In this document: positions 30,492 to 59,210 of the stretch, one piece after another | How positions within the stretch are numbered: position 1 is the first letter of the stretch | Layout of the letters: each line of letters starts with the position of its first letter | IMG/VR virus record: IMGVR_UViG_3300048918_000116 | Location: 1 to 64,000 of that record | Strand: one strand, 5' to 3' | Length of the DNA stretch: 64,000 nucleotides | Origin: a virus | Notes under the pieces: generated by a model | The model's input: only the letters and a program-made list of their open reading frames with translations | What the model was told of the DNA's origin: nothing | The model's database searches: none | Position numbers and translations under genes: made by a program

Positions 30492-30534
30492 TTTGCGTTA
30501 GCGCAAACCCTATTGCACCACAACACGGTACAAT
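30492..30534 (+). promoter_or_regulatory. Palindromic promoter/operator, copy 3
   Basis: TTTGCG-TTAG-CGCAAA (30492-30507) is followed after 21 bases by TACAAT (30529-30534), matching the copies at 24737 and 26206. It precedes the gene at 30568. Confidence 0.75.
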
Positions 30535-30567
30535 GTAAATGCACACCCCATAACAGAAGGAGCAATC

Positions 30568-30870
30568 ATGCTAACTACTCGCACTCAAGTTATTAACTAC
30601 CTTGTAACCCAAGGTAAGCCCGAAAACTTCGCTCGCGCAATGACTAATGAATTTCTGAACTGGGATAGCAACCCAAATGATCCAGACTTCGTTCCCGACC
30701 TAATTTGGTTTACTGAGCCATCGCATAAAGATTCCGATGTAGTAAGCATTACCGAAAAAGAAGCACTCAAGTTTTATGACGATTTTATGGGCTACGGAGT
30801 AGAACTCACTCCTGACGGTATCACATTCGATTATGACTTAACCTTCGACACTCAAGGCAATTACCTTTAA
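30568..30870 (+). CDS. Unknown protein, paralogue of the gene at 26332
   Basis: The 100-residue product starts MLTTRTQVINYLVTQGKPEN and ends GVELTPDGITFDYDLTFDTQ plus GNYL. Both ends match the protein at 26332. Both genes have the same promoter type, which suggests the promoter and gene were duplicated together. Its stop codon abuts the first hammerhead ribozyme. Confidence 0.7.
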   Translation: MLTTRTQVINYLVTQGKPENFARAMTNEFLNWDSNPNDPDFVPDLIWFTEPSHKDSDVVSITEKEALKFYDDFMGYGVELTPDGITFDYDLTFDTQGNYL

Positions 30871-30920
30871 CCACACTGACGAGTTCATAGGAACGAAACC
30901 TCTGCGAAGAGGCCTGTGGT
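30870..30920 (+). ncRNA. Hammerhead ribozyme 1 (type I)
   Basis: Stem I is ACCACA/TGTGGT. The core CTGACGA (30876-30882) is followed by stem II GTTC-ATAG-GAAC, core GAAA (30895-30898) and stem III CCTCT-GCGA-AGAGG. All conserved core bases are present. Cleavage is predicted after C30914. The one deviation is at the cleavage triplet: it reads GCC, so A15.1 faces C where U is usual, which could slow cleavage. The ribozyme begins at the stop codon of the upstream gene and ends 27 bases before the next ATG. Confidence 0.8.
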
Positions 30921-30946: not shown

Positions 30947-31288
30947 ATGCACAATATTCCACTCAACACGCACATTGAATCGTTCGACCGTGAATCTGCG
31001 CTCGTGGATGAAGTGTGCCCTCTTACGGATACGCCACTCAACCTAGAAGAAGGCAATTATGTTTTCTTCTACGACTATCCGATGAACGAAGATGTTTGTT
31101 TCAATCATCGCCTAACGCCAGCAATGAGCGTTATTGATGTGCTTCTGTTAGCAACAGAAGATTACAAAGAAATCTACAAGGACTATGACAATACTTGGGG
31201 GGGGGGCCACAGTCTGAATAACCTTTTCTTTGAAACGGTTCGCATTGCACCGCAGACCAAGGAAGTTTGCTTTAATATTGGTTCGTAA
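30947..31288 (+). CDS. Unknown protein with a coding G10 tract
   Basis: The 113-residue protein starts MHNIPLNTHIESFDRESALV after GAAAGGAG. It contains two Cys sites (VCPLTDTPLNLEEGNYVF and EDVCFNHRL). The codons for WGGGH include a run of ten G (31197-31206), prone to slippage in replication or sequencing. The predicted message start created by hammerhead cleavage lies 32 bases upstream. Confidence 0.62.
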   Translation: MHNIPLNTHIESFDRESALVDEVCPLTDTPLNLEEGNYVFFYDYPMNEDVCFNHRLTPAMSVIDVLLLATEDYKEIYKDYDNTWGGGHSLNNLFFETVRIAPQTKEVCFNIGS

Positions 31289-32844: not shown

Positions 32845-32939
32845 ATAGTGAACCAATCCAAAAATGTTACAATTAATCTTTAGCGTTTAGCTGCATTTTA
32901 GCGCACAATGTAATTGTACCGCAGCAGCAAGCAATATCA

Positions 32940-33004
32940 GCCACACTGATGACGACCTTAATGGTTGAAACCCGCAATCTTCAATCTTCACGCGGGTCTG
33001 TGGC
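32940..33004 (+). ncRNA. Hammerhead ribozyme 2 (type I)
   Basis: Stem I is GCCACA/TGTGGC. The core CTGATGA (32946-32952) leads to stem II GACC-TTAAT-GGTT, core GAAA (32967-32970), stem III CCCGC/GCGGG with a 16-base loop, and the canonical cleavage triplet GTC (32996-32998) with A15.1-U16.1 paired. Cleavage is predicted after C32998, 38 bases before the ATG at 33037. The deviation is one extra C (32953) between the core and stem II, where a G-C pair is usual. Confidence 0.8.
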
Positions 33005-33036
33005 AGGTGCCACGTTTAACTCTACAGGAGTGTATC

Positions 33037-34194
33037 ATGACTGCACAGAAATCCAGCAGCAAGTCTGCAACCAAAAGCCAGCCAAAGCCGGCCAATAAGT
33101 CTGCGGCGAAGCCCGTTCAGGTGGCACCGCAAACTACGGTCGCGTCGGTACAAGAGCCGTCAGCTGCTCAAACCGCTGAAAGCTCGGCCGCTCCGAACAT
33201 TGTGCAAGCATTACTTGCCAATCCGGATATGTCTACCAAGCTGACCAAGCTGGCCTACGAAACAGGTGTACTGCCTGACCGTCGTCAGGACGAACGCCGC
33301 CACGATGGTGACAATGCAATGCAGTTCGCGGTGACGCAACTCACCACTCCGGCAGCAAGCGCAGCAGCTAGCACCGAAACCGCACTTGCACCGTTTACAG
33401 CACCCCCAAGCGAACCGCAAGCTAGCGCACCGCTTACAGCACCGACAGCAGCACCCGCAAGCGTACCAACAGCAGCAACAGCGGAAATGAATCCGACGCA
33501 ACTGGCACAGTTTCAGGCTGCAATGCTTGCACTTGGTCAGCAGTTCGGAATGCCGGCGGAAGTTATTCAGAACCTCAGCAATCCTTCAACACTGTTGGCT
33601 ACTACGCCGCGTTCAGCGAAGGATACACGGAACAGTATTACTCGTCCCGGCGCTGATACGAAGACCGGCAAGGTGTGGGCAATAGGCGATGCAATTAGTA
33701 TGCAGAAAGGCGGTACGCCAGAAACTACGCCAGCAAGCATTGCTGAACTGAAGGCGCACCCTGACCTTCGCCAGTTTAATGACCACACTATCCGGACGCA
33801 ATATGCTCGCTGGAGGCAATATTACGGCGTAAGCGGTCGCGTTCAGTCGGAAATGGTTTCTGCGCCGGCTACCAAGCCAACGCAAAAGGCGTTCCCGAAA
33901 ATGACTGATGACGACTTCGCACGTTACATGGATTTGCGTAGCCGTGGTCAGTTGGATGAGGGTTACAAAGAATGGCTTGACTTTGAAGAATATCGTCGGA
34001 ATCCCGCAGCAGGGAATGCAGCAGCCGGCCAAGCTCAAGCACCAAAGCAGTTCGCACCAACCGAAGCACCGATTGGGCCAATGGCTGATGAAGTTTACAA
34101 CAGGCTTCTTCTGTTGAAGAACAACAACACGCTGCCAATCAACTTCCAAGCAGCATTTGACGCTGAAACCGCTCGCCGGGCCTCAGCAGCGTAA
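33037..34194 (+). CDS. Ala/Pro-rich protein with a GKVWxIxDxI...TQYARW domain
   Basis: ATG at 33037 follows CAGGAG, giving 385 residues. Residues 1-150 are low-complexity Lys/Ala/Pro/Thr sequence. Around 195-265 lies the shared domain (SITRPGADTKTGKVWAIGDA, then NDHTIRTQYARWRQYYG). The C-terminus is another linker plus helices (DDDFARYMDLRSRGQLDEGY). Three other proteins here carry the domain. I infer a DNA-binding, chromatin-like or regulatory role, but no family function is known to me. Its message would begin at the hammerhead 2 cut. Confidence 0.65.
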   Translation: MTAQKSSSKSATKSQPKPANKSAAKPVQVAPQTTVASVQEPSAAQTAESSAAPNIVQALLANPDMSTKLTKLAYETGVLPDRRQDERRHDGDNAMQFAVTQLTTPAASAAASTETALAPFTAPPSEPQASAPLTAPTAAPASVPTAATAEMNPTQLAQFQAAMLALGQQFGMPAEVIQNLSNPSTLLATTPRSAKDTRNSITRPGADTKTGKVWAIGDAISMQKGGTPETTPASIAELKAHPDLRQFNDHTIRTQYARWRQYYGVSGRVQSEMVSAPATKPTQKAFPKMTDDDFARYMDLRSRGQLDEGYKEWLDFEEYRRNPAAGNAAAGQAQAPKQFAPTEAPIGPMADEVYNRLLLLKNNNTLPINFQAAFDAETARRASAA

Positions 34195-34314: not shown

Positions 34315-35253
34315 ATGAAACCCAATCTTAAGCTCAAGATTTTGCCATTGCTAGTGTTATCAGCATGCGGCGGCGGAGCTCCCGACCATGTACTCACCAG
34401 CACAGTAGGCGACACACCTGTTCAGTGCGAAACATTCCTCACACCGAACTCATCGCCCAACACAGCTACGACCAATTGCATTAGTCCGACGCTGCCGTTT
34501 CAGCCCACAGTGCAGCCAGCTTTGCCTCCCGGCGTAACCGCGCCAATTCCTCCGCAAGTGCCAACTACACCTGCGAAGGTCGTCAACGCACCGACGACAG
34601 CACCCACAGCGTCGCCAACCGCACCAACAATGGCCACTCCGGTTCTGGTAGTCAGCGCACCTAGCGTTAGCTATTCGCAACGGGCAACTTCCGACCGTAC
34701 CGACGAGCAAAGCAAGCAGCAAATTCACGTCATATACCTGCTCGCTAAAGGCGCCGTTGATCGCAACCTTGACAGAGTTGGTAGCATTCAGAATTACACC
34801 GACGCTATGAATAGCTGGCTTACTGATCGTACTAGCCAGAAATTCAACTTTGACCGTTATCAAAGTTACGTTGATGTAACTACGATAGCTTTGTTGAATG
34901 AAGATAGCTGGTACGATAGCCAGCCTAACCAGTTCAAACGCGATGCTATCGAGAACGAGCTACTGACTCGCGGCTTCGTAAATAGCGCCAACAAGCGTTA
35001 TCTTGTCTTCTACGAAGGCTACAACCCTGACGGTAACTGCGGCGATTCAAGAAACGTAACTAGCATCCTTTATCTGCTCGCTGCGGATGGCCGTTGCGCA
35101 ACCGAGCTTGTCGCCATACATGAACTCCTTCATAACTTCGGTGCAGTTCATAGCAGCGTCCCGAACGATATCATGTATAGCGGCCCGCTTAACCGTTCCA
35201 CCAGCTACACAATCACCGCGTCCGAACTCAAAGGCGCTTACTTGGAGCAATAA
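34315..35253 (+). CDS. Lipoprotein zinc metalloprotease (metzincin-like)
   Basis: The 312-residue product has a signal peptide with a lipobox LSAC (cleavage before Cys18; Gly at +2 suggests the outer membrane). Residues 30-120 are a Pro/Thr-rich linker. A catalytic domain follows, with HELLHNFGAVH at about 269-279, matching the HExxHxxGxxH zinc signature, and NDIMYSG nearby as a possible Met-turn. Cys pairs (NCGDSR, GRCATEL) may form disulphides. A surface protease could prevent superinfection, cut host proteins or help release. It is unusual in a phage genome. GGAGG precedes the start. Confidence 0.82.
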   Translation: MKPNLKLKILPLLVLSACGGGAPDHVLTSTVGDTPVQCETFLTPNSSPNTATTNCISPTLPFQPTVQPALPPGVTAPIPPQVPTTPAKVVNAPTTAPTASPTAPTMATPVLVVSAPSVSYSQRATSDRTDEQSKQQIHVIYLLAKGAVDRNLDRVGSIQNYTDAMNSWLTDRTSQKFNFDRYQSYVDVTTIALLNEDSWYDSQPNQFKRDAIENELLTRGFVNSANKRYLVFYEGYNPDGNCGDSRNVTSILYLLAADGRCATELVAIHELLHNFGAVHSSVPNDIMYSGPLNRSTSYTITASELKGAYLEQ

Positions 35254-50120: not shown

Positions 50121-50741
50121 ATGGAAAACACAGAACAAGCCGCAATCGACGCAGCAAATGCCAAAGCCGCTGCCGAAGAAGCAAAGGCACTCGCTAAGGC
50201 ACAGGCTGACGCTGCAAAGGCTGAAGCAAAAGTAAAAGCTGACGCTGCTCGTGCAGAAGCAAAGGCTGCAAAAGACGCTGCTGCTAAAGCTGTCAAAGAA
50301 GCAAAAGAAGCTGCTGCTGTCCAGGCCAAGGCTGCAAAAGAAGCTGCCGCTGCTGAAGCAAAAGCAAAGAAAGATGCCGAAGTCGCTGCCAAGAATGAAG
50401 CCAAGGCTGCTGAAGCTGCTGCCAAAGCTCAAGCAAAGGCTGAAGCTGCTGCAACAAAAACCAAAGTTGTCATGCCTTCGCAGAACGGTATCACCCGTCC
50501 TCGTCCTGACGGTGCTTGCGGTAAAGTCTGGGCAATTGCTGATGCAATCTCGCAACGTATCGGCCAAGCTGCGCCGATCAATCTGTTGGCACCGGAATGC
50601 TCCGCTGCCGGCTTGAACGACGCGACAACTCGCACTCAGTACGCTCGCTGGAAGACTTTCAACGGCGTGTTCGGCGCAGTACCGAAGTACACTGCTCAGG
50701 TTGTTGAAACTGCCGCTGCTACTGAAACCGTCGTTGCGTAA
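50121..50741 (+). CDS. TolA/H1-like Lys-Ala coiled coil fused to the GKVWxIxDxI domain
   Basis: The 206-residue protein has two parts. Residues 10-110 are a long Ala/Lys/Glu helix (EAKALAKAQADAAKAEAKVK and further copies), like histone H1 tails or TolA. Residues 117-180 are the shared domain (TRPRPDGACGKVWAIADAIS, then GLNDATTRTQYARWKTFNG). It follows a strong promoter, has few rare residues and looks abundant. A DNA-binding, nucleoid-like protein is my best inference. Confidence 0.68.
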   Translation: MENTEQAAIDAANAKAAAEEAKALAKAQADAAKAEAKVKADAARAEAKAAKDAAAKAVKEAKEAAAVQAKAAKEAAAAEAKAKKDAEVAAKNEAKAAEAAAKAQAKAEAAATKTKVVMPSQNGITRPRPDGACGKVWAIADAISQRIGQAAPINLLAPECSAAGLNDATTRTQYARWKTFNGVFGAVPKYTAQVVETAAATETVVA

Positions 50742-50997: not shown

Positions 50998-51069
50998 CTC
51001 GAGATAGCTCAGTCGGTAGAGCAGTCGTGACGGCGAAGGTCGTGGGTTCGAGTCCCACTCTCGAGGCCA
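50998..51069 (+). tRNA. tRNA-like gene 3 with a shortened anticodon arm
   Basis: Acceptor CTCGAGA/TCTCGAG, D arm GCTC-AGTCGGTA-GAGC, T arm GTGGG-TTCGAGT-CCCAC, discriminator G and encoded CCA are all canonical. Only 13 bases lie where a 17-base anticodon arm is expected; GTCG-TGA-CGGC could make a 4-bp stem with a 3-base loop. No standard anticodon can be read. It may be a decoy, a pseudogene or a tRNA-like RNA. Confidence 0.6.
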
Positions 51070-51072
51070 ATT

Positions 51073-51201
51073 CTCAAGATAGCTCAGTCTGGTAGAGCGC
51101 CAGGAACTTGCAGAGTGAAACGTCGGCCGAAGGCTCAGTAACCTGTCAAGTTGTACTGTATATAAAGAGGTCGGAGGTTCAAATCCTTCTCTTGAGAGCC
51201 A
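51073..51201 (+). tRNA. tRNA-like gene 4 with a long insert after the D arm
   Basis: Acceptor CTCAAGA/TCTTGAG (8 bp if T51072 pairs with A51197), D arm GCTC-AGTCTGGTA-GAGC, variable loop AGGTC, T arm GGAGG-TTCAAAT-CCTTC and encoded CCA (51199-51201) are present. About 75 bases lie between D arm and variable loop. AACTTG/CAAGTT and CAGG/CCTG within it would cross as a pseudoknot. A weak arm TTGTA-CTGTATA-TAAAG next to the variable loop resembles a tRNA-Tyr (GUA) anticodon arm with one mismatch, which would place the insert after position 26. Confidence 0.55.
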
Positions 51202-51322
51202 ACATTAGACTCAGTTAGCGGTTAGTCACCGTTTGTGGGGTGAAACTCCTGACTAGGGGAGTAGCTCTATACGACGACCGGACGCCTCAGAAACGACGGA
51301 TAATAGCTGAGTCTAATGTTGG
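51199..51322 (+). ncRNA. 16-bp stem-loop starting at the CCA of tRNA-like 4
   Basis: CCAACATTAGACTCAG (51199-51214) is the exact reverse complement of CTGAGTCTAATGTTGG (51307-51322). Inside, CGGT-TAGTC-ACCG can form a hairpin whose loop pairs with GACTA downstream, a possible pseudoknot. The first bases are the tRNA CCA. The same CCAACATT...AATGTTGG arrangement follows tRNA-like 1. It separates the odd tRNA-like genes from the normal tRNA-Leu. Confidence 0.72.
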
Positions 51323-51325
51323 TGT

Positions 51326-51410
51326 GCCGTCGTGGTGGAATTGGTAGACACGCTATCTTGAGATGGTAGTGGCGAAAGCCGTACAAGTTCAAGTCTTGTC
51401 GTCGGCACCA
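51326..51410 (+). tRNA. tRNA-Leu (GAG)
   Basis: Class II tRNA with acceptor GCCGTCG/CGTCGGC (one T-T mismatch), D arm with GGTAGAC, anticodon stem CTATC/GGTAG with loop TTGAGAT (anticodon GAG), a long variable arm (GGCGAAAGCC), T arm ACAAG-TTCAAGT-CTTGT and encoded ACCA. It looks functional and would read CTC and CTT codons. Confidence 0.9.
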
Positions 51411-51423
51411 AACAGTTTTAAAT

Positions 51424-51501
51424 CTGAGTGTAAGTCAGCCCGGTCAGACGACCTGCTTTGGAAGCAGGAGGTCGTTGGTTCAAATCCAACCACTCAGACC
51501 A
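51424..51501 (+). tRNA. tRNA-Pro (TGG)
   Basis: Acceptor CTGAGTG/CACTCAG, anticodon stem CCTGC/GCAGG with loop TTTGGAA (anticodon TGG), variable loop AGGTC, T arm GTTGG-TTCAAAT-CCAAC and encoded ACCA. The D arm is short (GTC/GAC) but acceptable. It should be functional and read CCA and CCG codons. Confidence 0.92.
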
Positions 51502-58022: not shown

Positions 58023-59210
58023 ATGAAAGTTATTAACGACGAAGGTTCCAAGCCGATCAAGATTTGGACCGACGATATTGAGGATGCGGCGCTGACGCAG
58101 TTGAAGAATCTGGCGCGCTTGCCGTTCATCGCTGGCAATGGTGTTGCGTGTATGCCGGACGTTCATGCTGGCATTGGCTCCACGGTTGGGACGGTGATAG
58201 CTACCGACAAAGCGATTATTCCGGCTGCGGTCGGCGTCGATATTGGTTGTGGAATGAATGCAGTGCGTCTGTCGTTAAAAGCTTCCGACCTGCCAGAAAG
58301 CTTGGTAAATATCCGCCACCAAATTGAGCGGGATATTCCGCTTGGCGCAGGTGGAGCGCATTCTAGAATTGCGCCACAAGGACAACACACATTATGGGCA
58401 GATGTTCCTGACTCTGTGTTTCAAGTAACTGGCGGAAGCGCAAAGTTCTATAAGAAGGCGGAACCGCAGCTAGGCACGTTGGGCTCAGGCAACCATTTTA
58501 TTGAGCTGTGCTTAGATGAGAACCAAGACGTATGGATTATGCTGCACTCTGGTTCACGCGGCATTGGCAACATGATTGGCATGTATTTCATTGAAAAAGC
58601 CAAGCGCCGAATGGAGCAATATTTCATTAGCTTGCCAGACGGCGATCTTGCTTACTTCCCTGAAGATACAGACGAATTTAATGAATACGTTGAGGCAGTA
58701 GGTTGGGCGCAAAACTATGCTTTGGAAAACCGTCGCATGATGATGCAGCTAGTAATTGCAGCGTTGCGCCGCCATATTCCGATTGAATTCACAATCACCC
58801 AAGAAGCAATTAACTGCCACCATAACTACGTCGAGAAGGAAAACCACTTTGGACGGAACCTTTGGGTCACGCGAAAAGGCGCTATTCGAGCACGTGAGGG
58901 CGACCTTGGGATTATCCCAGGCTCAATGGGACAGAGAAGTTACATCGTCCGTGGCAAGGGAAATCCTGAATCATACTGCTCTTGTTCGCACGGAGCTGGG
59001 CGTAAAATGTCTCGCAGTAAGGCTCGTAAAGTCTTTACTATTGCTGACCTAAAAGAACAAACTGCTGGCGTTGAATGCCTTAAAACAGACGCCGTACTAG
59101 ATGAAATTCCAGGCGCTTACAAGAACATTGACGATGTTATGAACAACCAGAAAGACTTGGTTGAAATCGTTCATACTCTAAAACAGGTCTTGTGCGTTAA
59201 GGGGGCATAA
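58023..59210 (+). CDS. rtcB: RNA ligase RtcB
   Basis: The 395-residue protein matches RtcB throughout: MPDVHAGIGSTVGTVIATDK, PAAVGVDIGCGMNAVRL with the Mn-binding Asp/Cys, QLGTLGSGNHFIELC, MLHSGSRGIGNMIG, EAINCHHNYVEKENHFG, PGSMGQRSYIVRGKG, and CSCSHGAGRKMSRSKA with the guanylated His. It uses GTP to join 2',3'-cyclic phosphate or 3'-phosphate to 5'-OH RNA ends. Hammerhead ribozymes leave exactly these ends, and tRNAs cut by host anticodon nucleases also do. The start follows AGGAG; the stop overlaps the next gene. Confidence 0.95.
   Translation: MKVINDEGSKPIKIWTDDIEDAALTQLKNLARLPFIAGNGVACMPDVHAGIGSTVGTVIATDKAIIPAAVGVDIGCGMNAVRLSLKASDLPESLVNIRHQIERDIPLGAGGAHSRIAPQGQHTLWADVPDSVFQVTGGSAKFYKKAEPQLGTLGSGNHFIELCLDENQDVWIMLHSGSRGIGNMIGMYFIEKAKRRMEQYFISLPDGDLAYFPEDTDEFNEYVEAVGWAQNYALENRRMMMQLVIAALRRHIPIEFTITQEAINCHHNYVEKENHFGRNLWVTRKGAIRAREGDLGIIPGSMGQRSYIVRGKGNPESYCSCSHGAGRKMSRSKARKVFTIADLKEQTAGVECLKTDAVLDEIPGAYKNIDDVMNNQKDLVEIVHTLKQVLCVKGA

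Follow-up and report, generated by a model that had tools for sequence, protein, structure and literature searches.

A Type I Hammerhead Motif in the Leader of an Ala/Pro-Rich Gene of an Uncultured Tailed Phage

HH2, located at positions 32940–33004 of the window (the whole stretch of 64,000 nucleotides analysed here, positions 1 to 64,000 of the IMG/VR virus record IMGVR_UViG_3300048918_000116), is almost certainly a type I hammerhead in the leader of an Ala/Pro-rich gene, because distant relatives keep the same fold with different letters. In the full reading, which is considered very probable, HH2 is a genuine hammerhead of an uncultured tailed phage, which would cut the transcript co-transcriptionally, leave a hairpin at the new 5′ end and, together with the sister element HH1, produce gene-sized messages. 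The fold and its conservation are supported by sequence and comparison, whereas that HH2 cuts, when it would do so, what the 5′ hairpin does and the processing function are inferred.

Anatomy and Irregularities of HH2

In HH2, three helices meet at the core and stem I is open-ended, with 6 pairs in stem I, 4 in stem II (including one bulge and one G-U) and 6 in stem III (as shown in Table 1). The core features of the type I hammerhead are found in it, namely CUGANGA (N7 = U), GAA, A15.1-U16.1 and H17, and the site is GUC. The original prediction had described a GUC triplet with A15.1-U16.1, a six-base stem I and five G-C/C-G pairs in stem III, all of which are present in the sequence (GCCACA/UGUGGC and CCCGC/GCGGG, respectively); its 38-base leader was also reproduced, since the predicted cut at 32998/32999 leaves 38 nt to the ATG at 33037. 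The word canonical, which it had applied to the GUC site, is slightly generous, since HH2 has an inserted C and stem II starts with a G-U pair. Nor is the extra C the only oddity, as had been claimed: the first pair of stem II (10.1-11.1) is also G-U, and the extra C is paired with core G12 by minimum-energy folding.

Table 1. Coordinates of HH2 and of associated elements in the window.
Feature	Position	Strand	Basis
HH1, sister hammerhead with a GCC site, immediately following the stop of the gene that ends at 30870	30870–30920	+	
Stem I 5′ strand GCCACA	32940–32945	+	pairs perfectly with 32999–33004; stem I compensates in relatives
Conserved core CUGAUGA (C3–A9)	32946–32952	+	sequence; CTGANGA invariant, 16/16 lineage members
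Extra C between A9 and stem II	32953	+	sequence
Stem II GACC/GGUU, loop UUAAU, first pair G-U	32954–32966	+	sequence, comparison
Core G12 A13 A14 (GAA, 32967–32969) and A15.1 (32970)	32967–32970	+	GAAA invariant, 16/16 lineage members
Stem III CCCGC (32971–32975)/GCGGG (32992–32996), 16-nt loop, closed by A15.1-U16.1	32971–32997	+	sequence, folding
U16.1	32997	+	
Predicted cleavage site, 3′ of C17 (32998) of GUC	32998–32999	+	inferred from hammerhead consensus
Stem I 3′ strand UGUGGC; predicted 5′-OH end of the mRNA	32999–33004	+	sequence
Third strand GCCAC, repeating the 5′ strand of stem I; predicted post-cleavage hairpin with 33000–33004	33009–33013	+	folding
Ribosome-binding site AGGAG of the Ala/Pro-rich gene	33026–33030	+	sequence
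Ala/Pro-rich protein of 385 aa with a conserved ITRP...WRxYxGxxGR domain (phrog_18634, function unknown)	33037–34194	+	
RtcB-type RNA ligase (phrog_1075, E 6.6e-153)	58023–59210	+	

HH2 deviates here from a common preference, which is not a strict requirement, for stem II to follow A9 without an insertion and for 10.1-11.1 to be G-C; G-C occupies the first stem II pair in 15 of the 16 lineage members. A single extra base at the same A9/stem II site is carried by 7 other phage hammerheads of the collected set described below, always as T, and no second copy of the exact extra-C variant was found elsewhere. Since G12 is a potential partner of the extra C and stem II starts with G-U, the activity of HH2 may be reduced, and some loss of rate through the C-G12 pairing is likely. 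Among viroids, one hammerhead whose core carries an extra nucleotide reportedly cleaves well; it is reportedly of type III, with a base different from that of HH2. By its entry in the 2017 review (PMC6155905), De la Pena and Flores 2001 has the extra core nucleotide of a viroid hammerhead as its subject. Loop II of HH2, UUAAU, is of a recurrent kind (UUAAU/UCAAU/UAAUU) that ranks among the commonest in the phage relatives, and this recurrence suggests a shared loop contact, putatively a tertiary one with the stem I side.

Rarity of the Motif

With a strict descriptor (the core, stem II of at least 3 pairs, stem III of at least 4 with A15.1-U16.1, and stem I of at least 4), HH2 is the sole match in the 64 kb, and 0.01 matches are expected per shuffled 64 kb. 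The core pattern alone is loose and not rare, with 11 matches in the window against 4.3 expected; therefore, it is the stems that carry the weight. No type II or type III hammerhead was found in the window and the 7.2 kb remainder of the record. As for the Rfam models, HH2 gave no hammerhead match at gathering or relaxed thresholds, and none up to E 10 in 251 bases. HH2 matches none of RF00163 (Hammerhead_1), RF03152 (RAGATH-1-hammerhead) and RF02275 (Hammerhead_HH9), and its relatives score weakly: against the RF00163 cut-off of 34, L004 and L008 reach 30.4 and 26.6 bits, and L087 reaches 35.3 bits with RF03152, where the cut-off is 56.3.

Conservation in Relatives

Four uncultured phage records (L008, L004, L054 and L057) were tied to the window by translated searches. 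Each has a gene homologous to the Ala/Pro-rich one, with a CCACA hammerhead no further than about 1.1 kb from it. The hammerhead of L057 lies directly upstream of the gene homologue, like HH2, with a 41-nt leader, and hammerheads near the homologue are also found in L054, L004, L008, L082, L085 and L087. In a profile search with the Ala/Pro-rich protein, 38 loci were obtained, at which the descriptor found 12 hammerheads and, in ten-fold shuffles, 0; the stem I variants at these loci include ACTGCT, CCGCA, ACAACA, GCCCA, CCGCG and TCCACT.

Sixteen lineage hammerheads from eight related phage records were aligned over stem I, the outer three stem II pairs and 15.1-16.1. The original prediction had proposed looking for compensatory changes in stem II across homologous phages, and had named disrupted stems in close relatives as a refutation. 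The element passed this check, and the helices do compensate in relatives: pairs are formed in 95.6% of cells, a value biased upward since the descriptor used to pick the 16 rows itself demands pairs, and 35 cells are double-changed against a shuffled mean of 7.6. Neither figure was reached in any of 500 shuffles, and sliding the partner by one column abolishes the pairing.

Judged by its primase, the phage is distantly related to the Queuovirinae, for example to Pseudomonas phages NP1 and PaMx25 (46–58% identity), and it encodes QueC and GTP cyclohydrolase. No structured hammerhead was found in eight cultured records, mostly Queuovirinae-like. No DNA-level relatives of the window were found among deposited phages, and no close relatives were found via the protein at 30947.

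In addition to the alignment, relatives were sought by sequence patterns. The pattern CCACACTGAYGA..GAAAC..TGTGG contains the stem I letters of HH2 and HH1 and leaves stems II and III free; it gave 59 stretches in viral contigs and 3 when the core was scrambled. Clean stems II and III are present in 33 of the 46 distinct matches by a strict count, and the other 13, judged by eye, comprise 10 which pair with a bulge or an inner mismatch and 3 which look like chance. Applied to bacterial and archaeal genomes (257 Gb), this pattern gave 17 stretches, 2 of them structured; the motif therefore belongs to phages. A second pattern, in which the outer stem II pairs were fixed and stem I was free, gave at least 127 distinct matches. 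Among the matches listed, 105 of 127 have 5 pairs or more in stem I, against about 5 when strands were swapped among members, and at least 56 different stem I sequences occur. These searches, with the stems left free, point to the same answer as the lineage alignment without its pairing bias.

Placement of Phage Hammerheads and the Sister Element HH1

The set comprises 210 distinct hammerheads collected, with an upstream gene callable in 151 cases (de-duplicated). Its stop codon stands at −12 to −7 from C3, right against stem I, in 78 of the 151; it is the core UGA itself in 30 (about a fifth), and it ends stem I in 9. Counted from the predicted cut, the next start preceded by a ribosome-binding site comes after a median of 32 nt, and adjacent hammerhead pairs, with a median spacing of 716 bp, are on the same strand in 84 cases and on opposite strands in 0. 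Phage hammerheads thus have a regular address: against the upstream stop, about 32 nt before the next start and on one strand. Some viral contigs have serial hammerheads a few hundred bases apart (L202:460-2319, L150:2402-3826 and L001:8690-13186).

The leader length of HH2 fits the set, but its upstream stop is 96 nt away, unlike that of most relatives. HH1 fits the usual placement exactly, with the stop at −8 from C3 and a 32-nt leader to the ATG at 30947; its A15.1 faces C, and it is the sole GCC case of the 210. According to the general site preferences of hammerheads, a GCC site should cleave slowly.

The role of phage and prokaryotic hammerheads is called an open question in the 2017 review (PMC6155905). 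The simplest reading of the placement is genome economy together with cuts made between genes, in line with the proposal of Perreault et al., and the abutment on the stop may reflect merely compact intergenic space. The proposal can be put in testable form: the elements are putative cutters which would divide the polycistronic RNA of phages into messages of one gene each, every message having a defined 5′-OH leader and some also a 5′ hairpin.

The Third Strand

In HH2, the arrangement is GCCACA ... UGUGGC-AGGU-GCCACG, that is, the 5′ strand of stem I is repeated downstream of its 3′ strand, and the predicted start of the mRNA after the cut, UGUGGCAGGUGCCACG, folds as a 5-pair hairpin. According to secondary-structure energies, which are blind to tertiary contacts, stem I is near certain when the transcript ends at 33005–33011 and has a probability of 0.03–0.4 once 33014 is made; in the complete leader the hairpin is favoured over stem I and so competes with the active fold.

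Across the phage hammerheads, hairpins between the released strand and the tail (at least 4 pairs, loop of 3–8) are found in 48 of 198, compared with 23 for swapped tails (p 0.0005) and 20 for shuffled tails (p 0.002). Among the CCACA members, 18 of 34 have a third strand against 3.4 with shuffled tails, the strand being constant there and swapping therefore uninformative; among the other members with a GC-rich stem I there are 16 of 84 against 7.3 (p 0.0015). Examples are CCGCG..CGCGG-ATGT-CCGCG (L087) and CCGCA..TGCGG-ATGA-CCGCA (L195), and HH2 is one of the clearest cases. No enrichment was found in the members with an AT-rich stem I as a group. The idea of the tail as a general thermodynamic switch was rejected, as predicted switchers number 49 in the whole set and 48–60 with shuffled tails. 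A tentative proposal, somewhat more doubtful than probable, is that there is a sub-class of phage hammerheads in which the third strand captures the cleaved 3′ strand, blocks re-ligation and places a hairpin on the 5′-OH, which would make the ribozyme a one-way cutter at gene boundaries that also readies a structured leader. In the open-licence literature searched, no description of the third-strand arrangement was found.

Proposed Mechanism and Alternative Explanations

In the proposed mechanism, stems I–III would form as the RNA polymerase passes about 33005, and the RNA would cut itself between 32998 and 32999. The cut would part the downstream message from the upstream transcript and give it a 38-nt leader with a 5′-hydroxyl; the other product of hammerhead self-cleavage ends in a 2′,3′-cyclic phosphate. 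The released UGUGGC would then pair with GCCAC at 33009–33013 to form a hairpin at the start of the new mRNA, so that the cut strand could not easily re-anneal and be re-ligated. Acting together, HH2 and HH1 would convert a longer phage transcript into gene-sized messages.

Other explanations agree with part of these data. There is some chance, though a small one, that the leader is bistable, with the third strand holding the uncut fold, so that cutting takes place co-transcriptionally or on a shift (a ribosome at 33026, or a protein) and serves as a gene switch. The fall of the predicted stem I probability, on secondary-structure energies, from about 1.0 to 0.03–0.4 as 33014 is transcribed agrees with this, as do the enrichment of third strands across phage hammerheads and a second hairpin, AUCAG/CUGAU, which could mask the core; however, over the whole set shuffled tails give predicted switching no less often than the real ones (48–60 versus 49), and no ligand or factor is known. 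It is improbable that HH2 is a decayed, inactive relic in the phage, for which the extra C, the G-U and the GCC of HH1 would be lesions. HH2 and HH1 do each deviate at one core-adjacent place where the lineage relatives are regular, and the extra C is able to pair with G12 in folding, but the remaining core positions and all three stems of HH2 are intact, one extra base occurs at the same place in seven other phage hammerheads, and an extra core nucleotide has a counterpart in a viroid hammerhead (De la Pena and Flores 2001, as listed in PMC6155905).

RtcB joins the end types made by hammerheads, and it is encoded in the window, where HH1 and HH2 lie on the same strand. Even so, the idea that the two elements excise an RNA of about 2.1 kb, which is circularised or re-joined by the phage RtcB, is very improbable: the HH1 GCC site is unfavourable, and the ligase is present in just 5 of about 85 hammerhead-bearing phage records, which is not the distribution of a regular partner. 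On the same count, RtcB was rejected as a general hammerhead partner in a retrozyme-like circular RNA system. A fortuitous match, or a leader region with nothing but plain hairpins, is refuted by the comparison and keeps only a negligible chance. Of the three stems of HH2, two are predicted as simple hairpins anyway, but the descriptor expects 0.01 matches per shuffled window, and homologous loci show compensatory changes.

Comparison with Known Phage Hammerheads

Phage hammerheads are already known, and HH2 adds one with a small core irregularity. Perreault et al. 2011 (PMC3088659) proposed that long phage transcripts are processed in this way, and showed cleavage for three tandem bacterial sets. 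The type I hammerheads of phages and prophages described there share the core, the stems and the open stem I of HH2; likewise, several occur per phage on one strand and flank single genes or short blocks. The Queuovirinae-like lineage (by primase) of HH2 was not found in the passages of PMC3088659 covered here, nor do they mention the stop-codon abutment and the third strand of the present set. The hammerhead of haloviruses HF1/HF2 described in that paper precedes a gene, as HH2 does, an early gene in that case, and a mapped transcript 5′ end lies at most 3 nt from its predicted cut. It is unlike HH2 in its variant core, its position 13 nt before the start codon and its archaeal host.

Neighbouring Genes and Sequences

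A run of ten G at 31197–31206 (+), in the small gene 30947–31288 directly 3′ of HH1, is possibly a slippage site or a weak point of the assembly. A near-repeat, ACAATGTAAWTGYAC, is found at 32905–32917 and 30530–30544 (+), upstream of the HH2 and HH1 regions; at 32905 it reads as the perfect palindrome ACAAT-GTA-ATTGT, possibly an operator or promoter. A scan for sigma-70 promoters gave no more matches than in shuffles.

The protein encoded at 34315–35253 (+) has a lipoprotein-signal-like start (LSACGGG) and a zinc-protease-like motif, HELLHNFGAVH, with a weak Peptidase_M10 match below the cut-off. A second protein with the ITRP...WR domain is encoded at 50121–50741 (+) and shows 47% identity over 73 aa to the Ala/Pro-rich product; its gene precedes a radical-SAM (QueE-like) gene, and in Pseudomonas phage Iggy the homologues at this place bear the annotation putative transcriptional activator. 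RtcB may act on tRNAs, and the phage has a tRNA cluster: four tRNA matches lie at 50998–51498 (+), one of them with a long insert at 51073–51197.
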